Under the pieces are notes generated by a model. The model ran no database searches, had not been told where the DNA came from, and saw only the letters and a program-made list of their open reading frames with translations. Positions 16,252 to 23,249 of a stretch of 35,077 bases of DNA are shown here, piece by piece. Both the position numbers and the translations under genes were made by a program. This stretch comes from an uncultured Lachnospiraceae bacterium (GTDB lineage: Bacteria > Bacillota > Clostridia > Lachnospirales > Lachnospiraceae). Location of the stretch: positions 1 to 35,077 of the forward strand of contig CANQHZ010000034.1 of the NCBI GenBank assembly GCA_947623805.1. The letters run 5' to 3'. Every line of letters starts with the position of its first letter. Position 1 is the first letter of the stretch.

Positions 16252-16317
16252 CAATGTCAATTCATAATATTTTTGCGGATATCCACAACATATAATTTTT
16301 TGTCAGCCTCCTCAAAT

Positions 16318-17656: not shown

Positions 17657-18472
17657 CTACACACGCACTGAAACCGTTGCCTCACTCTCCTCCTCTACCG
17701 GCTTACCATCACTTGTATACATTTTAGGCATGGATTTTTCTGTCAATTTCTCTATCGCAATGTTTTCCTCGCTTTGTACACTCACATCATTCCCGTCTTC
17801 TTCACCTTTTGCATTCTTGCCATTCTTTGCGTCTTCCGTGCCCTTTGCATCTTCGTCTGTCCTTGCATCTGACGCCACCTCCGAGCTACTCTCTGCACCG
17901 TGATTATTCTTCAATTCCTCAATCGCTTTATTTGCCTCGCCCAAACTCTGCGCCTGCGCGTTCTCGGCATTTTGTGCGGTCTGCTCAAGCTCCGCGATTT
18001 CCTGCTGCTTGGCGGCAATCACTTTATCGCCCTTCGTCATCTTCAATTCCGACTTTAATATGTTAGCCTTGTTTGTGGCCTCCGTTGCCACATTGTCCTG
18101 TATTTTCGCCTGCTTAAGCGAACTGTCCGCCGCAAGCATTGCGCGCGTCGTCTGTTCTCCTGCTTTTGCCGCCGCCTGCTCATCACTTTGCTTTGGCTTT
18201 GCCGCCTCCGCCTTTTCCTGCTGCTTTTCTTTCCTAACCTCAAGCTGATGCTGCCTTAACTGATTATTCAAATCATTAATCTGCTGCTGAATTTCCTTGC
18301 GCTTTTCCATCTTCTGCTCCATCGGCATTTCCTTGTCTTGTGCCAGCGCCTGCAGCTGTTTTTGAGCACGCATTATCTGCTCTTTGATACTCTTGCTCAG
18401 CGCATCCTCCGCCGCTGCCGCTTTTACCGGACTTGACTGTACTCCCGAACTGTTTACTGCATTTACATTCAT
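17657..18472 (-). CDS. Coiled-coil FlxA-like protein, probable LytTR-regulated target
   Basis: 271 residues from the ATG at 18472, which has GGAGG 5 nt upstream; an open frame continues 26 codons further without a ribosome binding site. No signal peptide or membrane helix. Residues about 25-95 are a long Lys/Glu/Gln-rich heptad region with the FlxA-like pattern (KEQIMRAQKQLQ, QQINDLNNQL). More coiled coil follows to about 195, then an acidic, low-complexity tail rich in Asp, Glu, Asn and Lys. Function unknown; FlxA-like proteins in Clostridia have been annotated by domain only. A paired LytTR-type site and a matching -10 lie upstream, so it probably responds to the neighbouring two-component system. 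Confidence 0.8.
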   Translation of the reverse strand: MNVNAVNSSGVQSSPVKAAAAEDALSKSIKEQIMRAQKQLQALAQDKEMPMEQKMEKRKEIQQQINDLNNQLRQHQLEVRKEKQQEKAEAAKPKQSDEQAAAKAGEQTTRAMLAADSSLKQAKIQDNVATEATNKANILKSELKMTKGDKVIAAKQQEIAELEQTAQNAENAQAQSLGEANKAIEELKNNHGAESSSEVASDARTDEDAKGTEDAKNGKNAKGEEDGNDVSVQSEENIAIEKLTEKSMPKMYTSDGKPVEEESEATVSVRV

Positions 18473-18575: not shown

Positions 18576-18641
18576 TTTATATCGGATTTTTCCTACGCTA
18601 AATGAGTAAAATGTTGTGAACGAGCCATTTTTTGTTGTGAA
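18576..18641 (-). promoter_or_regulatory. Paired LytTR-type operator and promoter of the coiled-coil gene
   Basis: TTCACAACA (minus strand) occurs at 18633-18641 and 18612-18620, exactly 21 bp apart, i.e. on the same face of the helix. A CGATATAAA with TATAAA at 18576-18581 follows 27 bp after the inner repeat. The layout copies that before the response-regulator gene. Direct 9-bp repeats in 21-22-bp register are the known binding pattern of AgrA/ComE-type LytTR regulators. Confidence 0.75.
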
Positions 18642-18688
18642 GTGATTTCGCCCGCGCAATGATAACATGAATAACATGCCCCAAGCGA

Positions 18689-19687
18689 TTACCGCATCAT
18701 CAGCATGACACAAAGAGTAAACTCTCCGCTTTTTGCAGAAATGTCGATATCTCCGAAATATTTCTGCGCCGTCCGCCTTATATTCTCAAGCCCATAACCG
18801 TGACGGTTTTTGTCCGCCTTGATTGTCTTTGGAAGTCCTGTACATTCATCGTATGAAAGGCTCCCTTTAAAATTGTTTTTTATCTCAAGCATATATGCAT
18901 TTTCCCTGCAGCGCGAGCTGATTTCGATATACGGATTGGCGCAGACTGACGCCGCCTCCATAGCATTTGCCAGCGCGTTATTTAAGATTATGCTCAGGTC
19001 GAAAGCATCTATATTATCCGGATAATGAAAGTCGCACATAAATTCAATTCCTTTTTCCTTTGCCTGCTTTAAACCTTGTGTCAGTATCACGTCAGTGACA
19101 GGATTGCCGCTCTTGATTTCTGCAAACGAACTTTCAAAGCTGCGTTTTAGCCTTTCAAGATAGCTCTGCGCCTCATCATATTCCTTTCTTTCACAAAGGC
19201 ACTCCAATGTCATTATATGGTTGCCTATGTCGTGCCTCATTGCCCGCATATCACAATAAAGTCCCTCCACTTCACTTATGCGGCGTTTCATATTTTCCAT
19301 CTGCTCGGCATTGCGTTCATTTGCAAGCACTTTTTCCTGCGCACACTTAATCTGACGATACATCATAATTATAGCGGGTATTGCGGCAAACATAAGCACA
19401 TAGTATATGAAAAACGCAAAATTATGACCCGCATATAAGTCAAACACATCTTTAGTCACACTGTCTTCAATATACTTATGCTCATAAAACTTTTTTACAT
19501 TGTAGCTTAGCGCCATTGACACCAAAGGTATTGAAAGCATTGTAAATTCCGCCGCTGTAAGGTCTTCATCGCCGCAAACATACACCCGCCTTATAAGCCA
19601 CACGGTCAAAAACATAAATGCAAAATCTATAGGCAAATCCAAAATGACCTCACAAACAAAAATCCTAAAACTGTCATATTTGTGTCA
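18689..19687 (-). pseudogene. GHKL sensor histidine kinase, C-terminal portion (frameshifted from 19674-20084)
   Basis: This frame is open from about 19684 and carries the last membrane helices and the kinase core. Key parts are the phospho-acceptor H box RHDIGNHIMTLECL, the N box ILNNALANAMEAA and the G box GYGLENIRR, all typical of AgrC-like GHKL kinases that pair with LytTR regulators. Only a TTG at 19642 could serve as a start, and it has no ribosome binding site and would cut into a membrane helix. Reading back from it gives KYDSFRIFVCEVILDLPI, which joins smoothly to the end of the upstream frame. The gene is best read as one kinase of about 464 residues broken by a one-base shift, or a sequencing error. 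Confidence 0.85.
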
Positions 19688-20084
19688 TAACGCCGTTTCC
19701 TACTATCGTTTTCGTCAAAAGCCTGTCCATAAATTCCCACACGTTTAAAGGCACGGCAAGCGCCAGCCATCGCACGGAAAAAAATATACATGCAAGAAAC
19801 ATTTTTTGAAAAGGCTTGACCTTGCCGCTTTTAAAGTCAAGCAGCAGCATCACTGCAAATCCCGCCGCAACTCCGATAAAATACGCAATGAAATTGGAAA
19901 TATAATATGGTATATATTTAAGAAAAATCATTGTAATTGCATACGCCGCACCGACCGCCCAGAGCCGTCTTTTATTGTTCATATAAGGTTTTACAAGATA
20001 ACAATAGCAATACGCTACCACCAAATTCTGCAAAATAAGGTCTATCTTCAGCACTATTTCATAATATAAGTCAAGCTCGCCCAT
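19674..20084 (-). pseudogene. GHKL sensor histidine kinase, N-terminal membrane portion
   Basis: 136 residues with about four membrane helices, ending NGVMTQI at a TGA (19674-19676). AAGGAG lies about 8 nt before the ATG. It starts 52 bp after the response-regulator stop, in one operon with it. Alone it would be a sensor membrane domain without a kinase. The two open frames overlap only within about 19677-19687, which confines the shift to about a dozen bases. Confidence 0.85.
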
Positions 20085-20136
20085 AACATTCTCCTTCCCT
20101 TTGCAATTCCACTCCGCGAAAGCTCAAATGCAGTCT

Positions 20137-20883
20137 CTATCTCCCATTATATTTCTGATTGTATTTCAAATACGCCTTTACAAACAACGGATAATTCTTC
20201 TTTGCCATAATCACAATCTCTTTCCCAATCCATATGTTAGTGATATTATATTTCTTCACATATTTCAGATTTATCAAATATGCCCTATGCGGTCTGAAAA
20301 AATCACCGCACGCGATGTTGTCAAGCATTTTTTCAAGCTCCGACATTCTCCCGTAATACTCTACATCTCCGTCTGCTTTGTGTATAAGGATTTTCCTGTC
20401 AAAAATCTCGGCGTATATGATATCGTCCGTCTGTATTTTTATATGAGCATGACCTGACTTTACCGTTATATATTTTAGTGGCGATTTTTCTGACACTTCT
20501 GTCATTTTTGATGGCATGGCACTGCGCTCATTGCATTTCTCTACCGCACTTTGCAGCACTTGTATAAACCTATTCTCATCAAAAGGCTTTACCAGATAAT
20601 TAAACGCTGCTACGTCAAATGCCTCGAATACATATTCCTCCAAGGCTGTAATAAAGACTATGACAGCCCTGCTTTTGCGTCTTCTAAGCTCACGCGCCGT
20701 TTCCATGCCGTTTTTGCCGTCCATTTGTATGTCGAGAAATAAAATATCCATATGTCCATCAGCCAAAAGCAGCTCACTGCCCGACGCGTAAAGAATAACC
20801 TCTGCTGCGGGATACTCTTTTTGCACCAGCTCTGCAAGATGCTGCGCTGTTTTTCTTTCATCATCACATATCGCTATCCTCAT
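20137..20883 (-). CDS. LytTR-family response regulator (AgrA-like)
   Basis: 248 residues from the ATG at 20883, with GGAAGGA about 11 nt upstream; a TTG two codons earlier is less likely. Receiver domain 1-120 with Asp7-Asp8, phospho-acceptor Asp51 (LFLDIQMDG), Thr79 and Lys99 (YLVKPFD). The LytTR DNA-binding domain at about 140-245 includes ITVKSGHAHIKI, the IIYAEIFDRKI strand and FFRPHRAYLINLKYV. It probably activates its own operon and the coiled-coil gene through the paired TTCACAACA repeats. No AgrB or AgrD gene is nearby, so the signal is not an obvious autoinducing peptide. Confidence 0.92.
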   Translation of the reverse strand: MRIAICDDERKTAQHLAELVQKEYPAAEVILYASGSELLLADGHMDILFLDIQMDGKNGMETARELRRRKSRAVIVFITALEEYVFEAFDVAAFNYLVKPFDENRFIQVLQSAVEKCNERSAMPSKMTEVSEKSPLKYITVKSGHAHIKIQTDDIIYAEIFDRKILIHKADGDVEYYGRMSELEKMLDNIACGDFFRPHRAYLINLKYVKKYNITNIWIGKEIVIMAKKNYPLFVKAYLKYNQKYNGR

Positions 20884-20940
20884 TACCAACTTTCCTTCCG
20901 CTTTTGCATTGTTTCGTCAAGGCACCCATACATTTTTATA

Positions 20941-21007
20941 ATTATATCGTACTACTGCCATTTAAGCATTATCCAAATGTTGTGAAATGACATTTTTTTG
21001 TTGTGAA
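20941..21007 (-). promoter_or_regulatory. Paired LytTR-type operator and promoter of the response-regulator operon
   Basis: TTCACAACA (minus strand) at 20999-21007 and 20978-20986, 21 bp apart. CGATATAAT with TATAAT at 20941-20946 follows 28 bp after the inner repeat. There is no good -35, which fits a promoter that needs an activator. Both half-sites are identical to those at 18612-18641, and the T/A-rich spacer of this pair also resembles that one. The predicted leader is about 50 nt. Confidence 0.78.
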
Positions 21008-21145: not shown

Positions 21146-22057
21146 ATGAGCAAAGGATTTGATGATTTACTTAAAAGAGTTTCCGAGTGCAGCCGCAAAA
21201 AAGTAGCTGTCGCTGTCGCCGAGGACGAGCCTGTCCTTGAGGCTATAAAGGCGGCAAAAGAACAGGGTATCGCGGACGCTATTTTAGTCGGAGACGAGGC
21301 AAAAATTAAGGAAGTTGCCGACAAACTGAATATGGATTTGTCAGGTTACGAGGTTATCAATGAGCCTGACCACATTCAGGCGTCGCTCAAAGCGGTAAGC
21401 CTTGTACATAACGGACAGGCTGATATGTACATGAAAGGACTTATCGACACAAAGAGTTTCTTAAAGAGTGTACTTGACAAGGAGGTCGGACTTCGCACGG
21501 GCAAACCGCTCTCGCATGTCGCTGTTTTTGAGGTTAAGGGCGTTGACCATCTGCTGTTTTTGACAGACGTGGCATTTATGACTTACCCCACTCTCGAGGA
21601 CAAGAAAGCGATTATCGAAAATACTGTCTCTGTCTGCCACGCGTGCGGTATCCCTAATCCCAAGGTCGCACCTATCGCGGCTGTCGAGGTTGTCAATCCC
21701 AAGATGCCGTGCACTGTTGAAGCCGAAGCGCTCACCAAGATGAATGAGGACGGCGAAATTACAGGCTGTATAGTTGACGGACCGCTTTCTATGGATATGG
21801 CTATCGACAAAGAGGCTGCTGCGCACAAGGGCGGCACGGGAAGAAAAATCGCGGGCGATGCCGATGTACTTCTTTTCCCCGATATCCACGCGGGCAATCT
21901 TGTTTACAAGACACTCACACACCTTTGCGAAGTAAAGAACGGCTGCATATTGACCGGCACTGCCGCACCTGTCATTCTGACTTCGCGCTCGGATACATTT
22001 GAGACCAAAATGAACTCAATTGCGCTTGCCGCAGTTGTGGCCGAAGCAAAAAACTAA
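21146..22057 (+). CDS. ptb: Phosphate butyryltransferase
   Basis: 303-residue protein of the phosphate acetyl/butyryltransferase family, full length. It converts butyryl-CoA and phosphate to butyryl phosphate and CoA in the cytoplasm. Family features include VAVAEDEPVLEAIKAAKEQG near the start, the YMKGLIDTKSFLKSVLD segment and the C-terminal GPLSMDMAIDKEAAAHKG with LFPDIHAGN. The start has GGAGG 6 nt away. The butyrate kinase gene follows on the same strand, which distinguishes it from phosphate acetyltransferase by context. Confidence 0.95.
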   Translation: MSKGFDDLLKRVSECSRKKVAVAVAEDEPVLEAIKAAKEQGIADAILVGDEAKIKEVADKLNMDLSGYEVINEPDHIQASLKAVSLVHNGQADMYMKGLIDTKSFLKSVLDKEVGLRTGKPLSHVAVFEVKGVDHLLFLTDVAFMTYPTLEDKKAIIENTVSVCHACGIPNPKVAPIAAVEVVNPKMPCTVEAEALTKMNEDGEITGCIVDGPLSMDMAIDKEAAAHKGGTGRKIAGDADVLLFPDIHAGNLVYKTLTHLCEVKNGCILTGTAAPVILTSRSDTFETKMNSIALAAVVAEAKN

Positions 22058-22110
22058 GCAGCTATAAGGACACAAAAGACGTGTTCTAAGACCTGCTAAG
22101 TTTTTGAAAG

Positions 22111-22133
22111 AACGCCAAGGGGGCGGCGTTTTT
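22111..22133 (+). promoter_or_regulatory. Intergenic hairpin between ptb and buk
   Basis: AACGCC (22111-22116) pairs with GGCGTT (22125-22130), followed by only three or four T. It could weaken read-through or protect the ptb mRNA end; it is too weak to call a full terminator. Confidence 0.4.
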
Positions 22134-22181
22134 CCCATTTAATTTACTAATTTTAAAATAAAAAATAAATGGAGGATATTT

Positions 22182-23249
22182 ATGTCTGTTAAAAGTTTGA
22201 TTATTAATCCCGGTTCTACTTCTACCAAAATCGGTGTCTTTGAAGATGAGAACCTCTTGTTTGAGGAGACGCTCAGACATTCTACCGAGGAAATTTCACA
22301 ATTTGCCAATATCGTTGACCAGAAAGATTTCCGTAAAAAAATTATCACGGACCTGCTTGCGGAGAAAAATTTTGATATTAAATCGCTCAATGTTGTCGTA
22401 GGGCGCGGCGGCATGTTAAAGCCCATTTCAGGCGGCACATATCCTGTTACCGACGCGCTGCTTGAGGATTTAAAAGTCGGTGTTCAGGGACAGCATGCAT
22501 CTAATCTGGGTGGTATTCTTGCAAGGGAAATTGCAGACTCAATCGGCGTTCCGTCTTATATCGTTGACCCGGTCGTCGTTGACGAGCTTATGCCCATCGC
22601 AAGATATTCGGGCGTGCCCGAGCTTCCCCGCATCAGCGTTTTCCACGCGCTTAACCAGAAAGCTGTAGCAAAACGATACGCCAAAGAAATTGGCAAACGC
22701 TACGATGAGCTACGCCTGATAGTCGTTCACATGGGCGGCGGAGTTTCAGTCGGAGCGCATCTAAACGGCAAGGTTATAGATGTATTCAACGCGCTTGACG
22801 GCGATGGTGCTTTCTCTCCCGAGCGCGCCGGCGCTGTACCGAGCGGAGCACTCATCAAGATGTGCTTTTCAGGAAAATACACGGAAAAAGAAGTATACAG
22901 CAAGGTCGTAGGCAAGGGCGGATTTAACGCTTACCTCGGCACAAACGATATGCGCGAGGTAACAAAGCGCGCAAACGAGGGCGACGAAAAGGCAGCCGAG
23001 GTCAAGAAAGCGTTTCTTCTTCAGGTAGCAAAGGATATTGGCTCTATGGCATGTGTGCTTAACGGTAAAGTTGACCAAATCATCGTGACAGGCGGTATCG
23101 CTTACGGCGAAGATGTCGTTGCCGCTCTACGCGAATACGCAGAGTGGATTGCACCGTTTACCGTTTATCCTGGCGAAGATGAACTGCTTGCACTCGCCCA
23201 GGGAGCACTCAGAGTGCTTAACGGCGAAGAAAAGGCTATGGAATACTAA
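22182..23249 (+). CDS. buk: Butyrate kinase
   Basis: 355-residue protein, the usual length of butyrate kinases in the acetokinase/ASKHA family. It transfers phosphate from butyryl phosphate to ADP, giving butyrate and ATP. The N-terminal phosphate-binding strand is [15 protein letters not shown]; further motifs are [23 protein letters not shown] and, for adenosine, [18 protein letters not shown] lies before the ATG. It follows ptb by 124 bp containing a small hairpin and ends before a strong bidirectional terminator. Together with the etfA gene near the window end it supports butyrate fermentation. Confidence 0.96.

Follow-up and report, generated by a model that had tools for sequence, protein, structure and literature searches.

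A GHKL/LytTR two-component system with a paired-repeat operator and its predicted control of FlxA-like and DUF6033 genes at sigma-28-like promoters in Lachnospiraceae

Introduction

Autoregulation of the LytTR type is found in ComE and AgrA, and LytTR regulators that combine 9-N12-9 repeats with autoactivation are well known. The LRS is one such case: in the available sections of its description, a LytTR protein goes together with 9-N12-9 direct repeats and autoactivation (PMC6193735). For sigma-28 transcription that depends on an activator, the precedent is Escherichia coli aer, whose sigma-28 promoter is activated by CRP from a non-classical upstream position (PMC2859248, in the part available). 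The E. coli flxA gene is FliA-dependent and has a FliA promoter, according to the accessible part of PMC4183435.

In the open-access literature we found no paper on DUF6033 or under the term 'FlxA-like'. There, by titles and abstracts, FlxA and LytTR occur together in Geobacter only, sigma28 and LytTR in Laribacter only, and LytTR, SigD and flagella in C. difficile papers.

Here we analyse a stretch of 35,077 nucleotides from an uncultured Lachnospiraceae bacterium (contig CANQHZ010000034.1 of assembly GCA_947623805.1), called the window below. Judging from sequence comparison, we consider it probable that its GHKL/LytTR pair is autoactivating and that it acts together with sigma-28 polymerase on a set of FlxA-like and DUF6033 genes.

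Results

The genes of the locus are the following:

20137..20883, minus strand: response regulator, receiver plus LytTR DNA-binding domain (Pfam PF00072, E 1.2e-17; PF04397, E 1.2e-13)
19674..20084, minus strand: GHKL sensor kinase, N-terminal part, separate ORF of 136 aa (alignment to the kinase of locus L080)
18689..19642, minus strand: GHKL sensor kinase, C-terminal part, 317 aa (Pfam HATPase_c_5, E 1.1e-23)
17657..18472, minus strand: FlxA-like coiled-coil protein, 271 aa, the neighbouring target (Pfam PF14282 FlxA, E 1.2e-11)

As in a LytTR two-component system, a regulator with receiver and LytTR domains shares its operon with a GHKL kinase, which is split in the window. Its two ORFs (18689-20084) lie in different frames; the downstream one matches residues 159-475 of the 475-aa L080 kinase with 67% identity, the upstream one residues 15-145 with 60% identity. 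Since both halves align to a single kinase, the sensor gene carries a frameshift in this assembly, real or technical.

The FlxA-like protein scores 45.1 bits against PF14282, for a cut-off of 26.3. Its AlphaFold model (mean pLDDT 73) consists of two confident helical hairpins, at 24-90 and 100-197, with low-confidence ends, and a profile search of the PDB with the FlxA-like alignment gave no match. In 23 of the 39 sequences aligned (alignment A3), a variable stretch is followed by the C-terminus VDVRL or VDIRL; the window copy ends VSVRV. The output proteins begin with MKINGxxG or MTINGxxG, N-termini which we take to resemble those of flagellar export substrates.

The window holds exactly four exact copies of the operator repeat, TTCACAACA. 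All of them lie on the minus strand, and they form two pairs:

20999..21007, minus strand: operator repeat 1, regulator operon (sequence match)
20978..20986, minus strand: operator repeat 2, promoter-proximal, regulator operon (sequence match)
20940..20950, minus strand: -10 element ACGATATAATT of the regulator promoter, CGA 28 bp past the repeat (sequence and offset)
18633..18641, minus strand: operator repeat 1, FlxA-like gene (sequence match)
18612..18620, minus strand: operator repeat 2, promoter-proximal, FlxA-like gene (sequence match)
18576..18585, minus strand: -10 element CCGATATAAA of the FlxA-like promoter, CGA 27 bp past the repeat (sequence and offset)

The operator is thus TTCACAACA-N12-TTCACAACA, and it stands upstream of the LytTR regulator and of the FlxA-like gene, with CGATATAA 27-28 bp beyond each copy. 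The positions of the repeats and their 21-bp register are as the original prediction had them, and so is the distance to the -10 element, CGATA starting 27 bp (FlxA-like gene) or 28 bp (regulator) past the promoter-proximal repeat. The spacer between the repeats consists of an A-tract, then GG and CG.

Such spacing had been held to exceed chance, and indeed it does. Allowing up to three mismatches, the pair pattern has three matches in the window, namely both pairs and a three-mismatch match at 16261; 100 shuffled versions average 0.04 matches and never have more than one. The single 9-mer with up to one mismatch occurs 16 times against 10 expected, a number reached by 4 of 100 shuffles. Single repeats being only mildly above background, it is the paired arrangement that constitutes the signal, and we used the paired site throughout.

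A divergent gene pair (21146-23249), by eye phosphate butyryltransferase and butyrate kinase, starts 139 bp from the regulator operator; we saw no sign that this operator serves it.

In the 3.96-Mb draft genome the pair pattern is rare and stands mostly before genes, as the search proposed with the prediction had anticipated. It has three exact, four one-mismatch, no two-mismatch and eight three-mismatch places, and of the reversed control pattern there are seven places within three mismatches, with no place within one. Two of the seven places with at most one mismatch are in the window and the other five are elsewhere:

contig C23: operator before a DUF6033-related gene (just below the Pfam cut-off), then the genome's only other FlxA gene
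contig C86: operator before a small protein, coiled-coil by eye, with no family above cut-off
contigs C129 and C157: operator before a DUF6033 gene, the contigs being near-identical
contig C180: operator before a second LytTR regulator

The idea of a local regulon was therefore too narrow, with five of the seven operators outside the window and other protein families included. CGAWA follows at +27 or +28 in six of the seven places; the C180 site lacks it. The genome's two FlxA genes are each preceded by an operator, in one case as second gene behind it, and so are three of its five DUF6033 matches (those on C129, C157 and C23; the two on C61 and C41 have none).

Several observations on this genome stand apart. 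The near-identical C129 and C157 (L011 1-8981 and L012 1-5965) carry the same DUF6033 operon, a duplication or a strain or assembly artefact. Two further LytTR/GHKL pairs, paralogous to that of the window, are found at L009 3295-5408 and L013 1-1979; the one on C180 has the operator and a plain TATAAT-like -10. Some 400 bp separate one operator-less DUF6033 gene (L190, C41:14169-14717) from a match to the sigma-70 family (C41:15118-15729). A motif, SDYAxIKNGSYGKL, recurs in regulon proteins of different genomes (L011 385-1344, L206 and L121), and the L011 protein has no Pfam match. A FliD-like identity was considered for the L011 and L210 proteins and is not claimed: Pfam and NCBIfam confirmed it for neither, nor did a PDB sequence search for L011, and BLASTP against the presumed FliD of our own genome, named by reading, gave E 0.003 over 23 residues only for L011 and E 0.15 for L210.

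The operator recurs among relatives. At no more than one mismatch it has 53 places in 26 of 144 genomes, our own included, and the reversed control has 6 matches in these genomes. Of the 53 places, those at L014, L015, L016 and L020 look like chance matches, having no -10 element and no regulon family behind them; the genome of L016 (G065) has neither a flagellin nor a FliA match.

When an alignment of 11 regulators was used to scan named genomes, 321 relatives emerged. We kept the best 80, by title mostly from Lachnospiraceae metagenome assemblies. Upstream of 70 of these best 80 we found the operator (up to six mismatches, within 450 bp or less at contig ends), followed in 61 of the 70 by CGAWA 26-29 bp past it. 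The remaining 10 have matches with seven or eight mismatches only, and CGAWA in none. The kinase lies downstream in 74 of the 80 loci and a FlxA-like gene in 59, on the same strand and 0.8-3.9 kb downstream of the regulator start, in a set where some contigs end too early; L110 has an additional FlxA-like match on the opposite strand. The prediction had been made to depend on conservation in relatives that keep the three genes, and this was found.

The FlxA-like genes of these loci carry the same promoter. Operator and CGAWA lie within 500 bp before the FlxA-like ORF in 40 of the 59 loci, and the operator also precedes the downstream FlxA-like gene in 6 of the 10 loci whose regulator has none of its own. 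Operator and CGAWA precede a DUF6033-like gene in 15 loci (assigned by Pfam in two and by likeness in the others, one gene being a shortened relative). As a control we took the remaining ORFs of these loci with a length of 200 aa or more, 522 in all, of which 37 have an operator and CGAWA promoter; by eye, these are 10 regulator genes or ORFs overlapping them, 15 DUF6033-like genes, 10 other small regulon-type proteins and 2 unrelated ORFs, whose operators both have six mismatches.

Starting from FlxA itself gave a similar picture. Of 52 FlxA matches 31 loci were scanned, and 22 have operator and CGAWA at up to five mismatches (an isolated match at L160 was counted as chance, outside the 22), the other nine lacking a full promoter. 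In 14 control genomes, including that of E. coli, the PF14282 model has no match. Across the family, sampled evenly, operator and CGAWA occur in 10 of 397 genomes (own included), from 10 genera, at 19 places; the 18 downstream genes that could be read are by eye seven regulators, three FlxA-like, five DUF6033-like and three other short proteins (L206, L210, L212). A GHKL-kinase/LytTR system with its own operator is thus present in several Lachnospiraceae genera. Autoactivation and direct control of the FlxA-like gene, the substance of the original prediction, fit these comparative data well and are supported by them, DNA binding and activation being themselves predicted.

The -10 element lies at a fixed place. 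Among 82 distinct sites with up to two mismatches (counted as distinct when more than 12 of their 90 bases differ, and with chance operator matches retained), CGAWA is found 27-29 bp past the operator in 69, that is 10 at +27, 58 at +28 and 1 at +29, and only 8 times elsewhere in the 50 bp scanned. When sites with up to three mismatches are aligned on CGA, two classes appear. Regulator promoters read TATC...CCGATATAAT, with CGAWA in 42 of 51 and none in the other 9; target promoters read TTTAGTTT...CCGA(A 74%, T 26%)A, with CGAWA in 58 of 73, both counts including chance operator matches. The base before CGAWA in these alignments is C in about 70%. The target -35 is often TTTAG, near the place of TAAA in sigma-28 promoters and 1 bp further from the -10 than in the genome's own flagellin and flgM-like promoters.

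The latter promoters (L073, flgM named by eye) read TAAAGT-N14-CCGATA, i.e. TAAA-N16-CCGATA. The published sigma-28 consensus is TAAAGTTT-n11-GCCGATAA in the available part of PMC2859248, and the FliA-dependent E. coli tsr promoter has CCGAAA, reading GCCGAAAA, in that of PMC4183435. Taking TAAA-N16-CCGATATA as yardstick for a canonical sigma-28 promoter, we found it in 4 of 18 flagellin-family loci (L073, L196, L197, L199). Some of the remaining ones have a CCGAWA with no TAAA at the required distance, or a TAAA-CGAWA match standing by itself, and the rest neither; some loci without a canonical promoter may be later genes of operons.

By sequence, the target promoters resemble those of sigma-28, except that their -35 is degenerate and one base further away; the regulator promoter looks like a hybrid. 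The -10 element expected after the operator is therefore there, at 27 or 28 bp, but is not a plain sigma-A element, as its most conserved part, CCGAWA, resembles sigma-28. The promoters of the window pair are less clear-cut, both being devoid of a -35 of the sigma-28 kind; that of the FlxA-like gene has neither TAAA nor TTTAG at this place, reads TATAAA (five of six to TATAAT) and is nearer the hybrid class. The non-canonical -35, and a TATAAT-like -10 alone in several promoters, that of C180 included, count against the sigma-28 reading.

The strongest alternative is ordinary LytTR autoregulation with sigma-A at all promoters, CCGA being a discriminator or an activator contact and the weak -10 of the targets being rescued by the regulator. 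We hold it to be rather unlikely. TATAAT does stand at a fixed place in the regulator promoters, where it is perfect (6/6) in 23 of 42, and at regulators L083, L140, L146, L147, L150 and L158 it occurs without CGAWA; moreover, in known LytTR promoters some 10 bp separate the 9-N12-9 repeats from the sigma-A -35 that follows (PMC6193735, available sections). However, none of the 58 CGAWA-aligned targets, which are mostly CCGAAA, has a perfect TATAAT, the -7 T of this hexamer is present in 41% of targets versus 74% of regulator promoters, and the target -35 is TTTAG-like, not TTGACA. We therefore retain sigma-28 as the more probable partner of the regulator at the target promoters.

Our own genome has one FliA above cut-off (TIGR02479, contig C12), by eye in a cluster of chemotaxis genes, and eight flagellin-family matches. 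FliA is present in 48 of the 49 regulator-bearing genomes, which come from 50 of the 80 regulator loci; the exception is G180, without a FliA match. This set is weighted towards the genus of the window and neighbouring genera, a group in which FliA is common anyway (within the genus, 34 of 38 genomes have it, own included). The association also holds for regulators without their own operator, FliA being found in 38 of 39 genomes with an own-operator regulator and in 10 of 10 with an operator-less one. In the family sample it was found in 10 of 10 operator genomes versus 46 of 86 others. These controls combine 23 of 38 and 23 of 48 family genomes, three operator genomes having been left out of the second set and G333 removed because its FliA lies at the same contig place as in G149, the genome of regulator locus L156; they lack the exact operator pattern only, so that weaker operators may be among them. 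Fisher's test gave p 0.005 for the 10 operator genomes and 4e-9 for the regulator genomes, both ignoring descent. Two genomes, G024 and G026, have flagellins and no FliA match.

CCGAWA could also be read by another alternative sigma factor (sporulation, ECF or SigI-like), the flagellar link then reflecting descent only. The genome does hold more sigma-70-family matches, below the FliA cut-off, and the FliA association takes no account of phylogeny. On the other hand, the element is shared with the genome's own flagellin and flgM-like promoters, which carry CCGATA, and every operator genome of the family sample has FliA, which makes this reading improbable. Finally, that another factor binds the repeats while the LytTR pair is a bystander seems very improbable indeed, given that 9-N12-9 direct repeats are a known LytTR arrangement (PMC6193735, as far as available), that the operator precedes most of the related regulators and that, where it does not, it still mostly precedes the FlxA-like gene.

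Discussion

What the sequences themselves show is the operator with its spacing, the two classes of -10 element, the linkage of the genes and the co-occurrence with FliA. We infer that the regulator binds and activates at these sites, that sigma-28 is used at the targets, that a signal sets the system going and that the outputs have a role associated with the flagellum or exported through it. The kinase would sense this signal and phosphorylate the LytTR regulator. Once phosphorylated, the regulator would occupy both 9-bp repeats, which are two helical turns apart and so face the same side of the DNA, and would activate from this constant distance. For the regulator gene itself, the hybrid -10 (CCGATATAAT) would be readable by the housekeeping sigma-A polymerase, leading to autoactivation. 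The promoters of the outputs, that is of FlxA-like, DUF6033 and similar small proteins, with their CCGAWA -10 and often weak TTTAG -35, would need sigma-28 (FliA/SigD) polymerase together with the regulator. Production of the outputs would then require both the signal and sigma-28 released by the flagellar programme.

A broader proposal is one that we put forward tentatively. The LytTR system may be a dedicated activator of sigma-28 promoters, working as an AND gate that combines an external signal with flagellar assembly. Its small helical outputs (FlxA-like, DUF6033 and others) may leave via flagellar export, and flagellated gut Lachnospiraceae may thereby employ their flagella for regulated secretion.

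In the gut, flagellin is a major immune signal. If the sigma-28 reading is true, the system would be a case of gut commensals in which a response regulator governs late flagellar promoters. FlxA, FliA-dependent in E. coli, has no role assigned; its family gains here a conserved partner system, an operator for which genomes can be scanned, and sister target families.

How does the system compare with those already described? The likeness to E. coli flxA lies in the PF14282 family, named after the E. coli gene, and in the sigma-28 promoter there; it rests on family rather than on direct protein comparison, and unlike in E. coli the gene is tied here to a two-component system. ComE, AgrA and the LRS share with our system a LytTR protein, a pair of 9-bp direct repeats with 12 bp between them, a -10 at fixed distance and positive autoregulation, the last presumed here from the operator before the regulator gene. 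Unlike in these systems, the repeat here is TTCACAACA and the targets have a CCGAWA -10, and the outputs are FlxA-like and DUF6033 proteins, whereas they are bacteriocin or competence genes there. The LRS moreover has an inhibitory membrane protein, where we find a GHKL kinase and a receiver domain. As for an agr-like quorum system, we recognised no autoinducer gene by eye in the ORF list of the window. As far as the open-access literature shows, the new features are FlxA and DUF6033 proteins as output, the breadth of this output, and a -10 resembling that of sigma-28. It is in this last respect that the system recalls E. coli aer, as a predicted sigma-28 promoter depending on an upstream activator; unlike at aer, the activator would be a LytTR protein on tandem repeats, acting at many promoters, in several genera and in another phylum.
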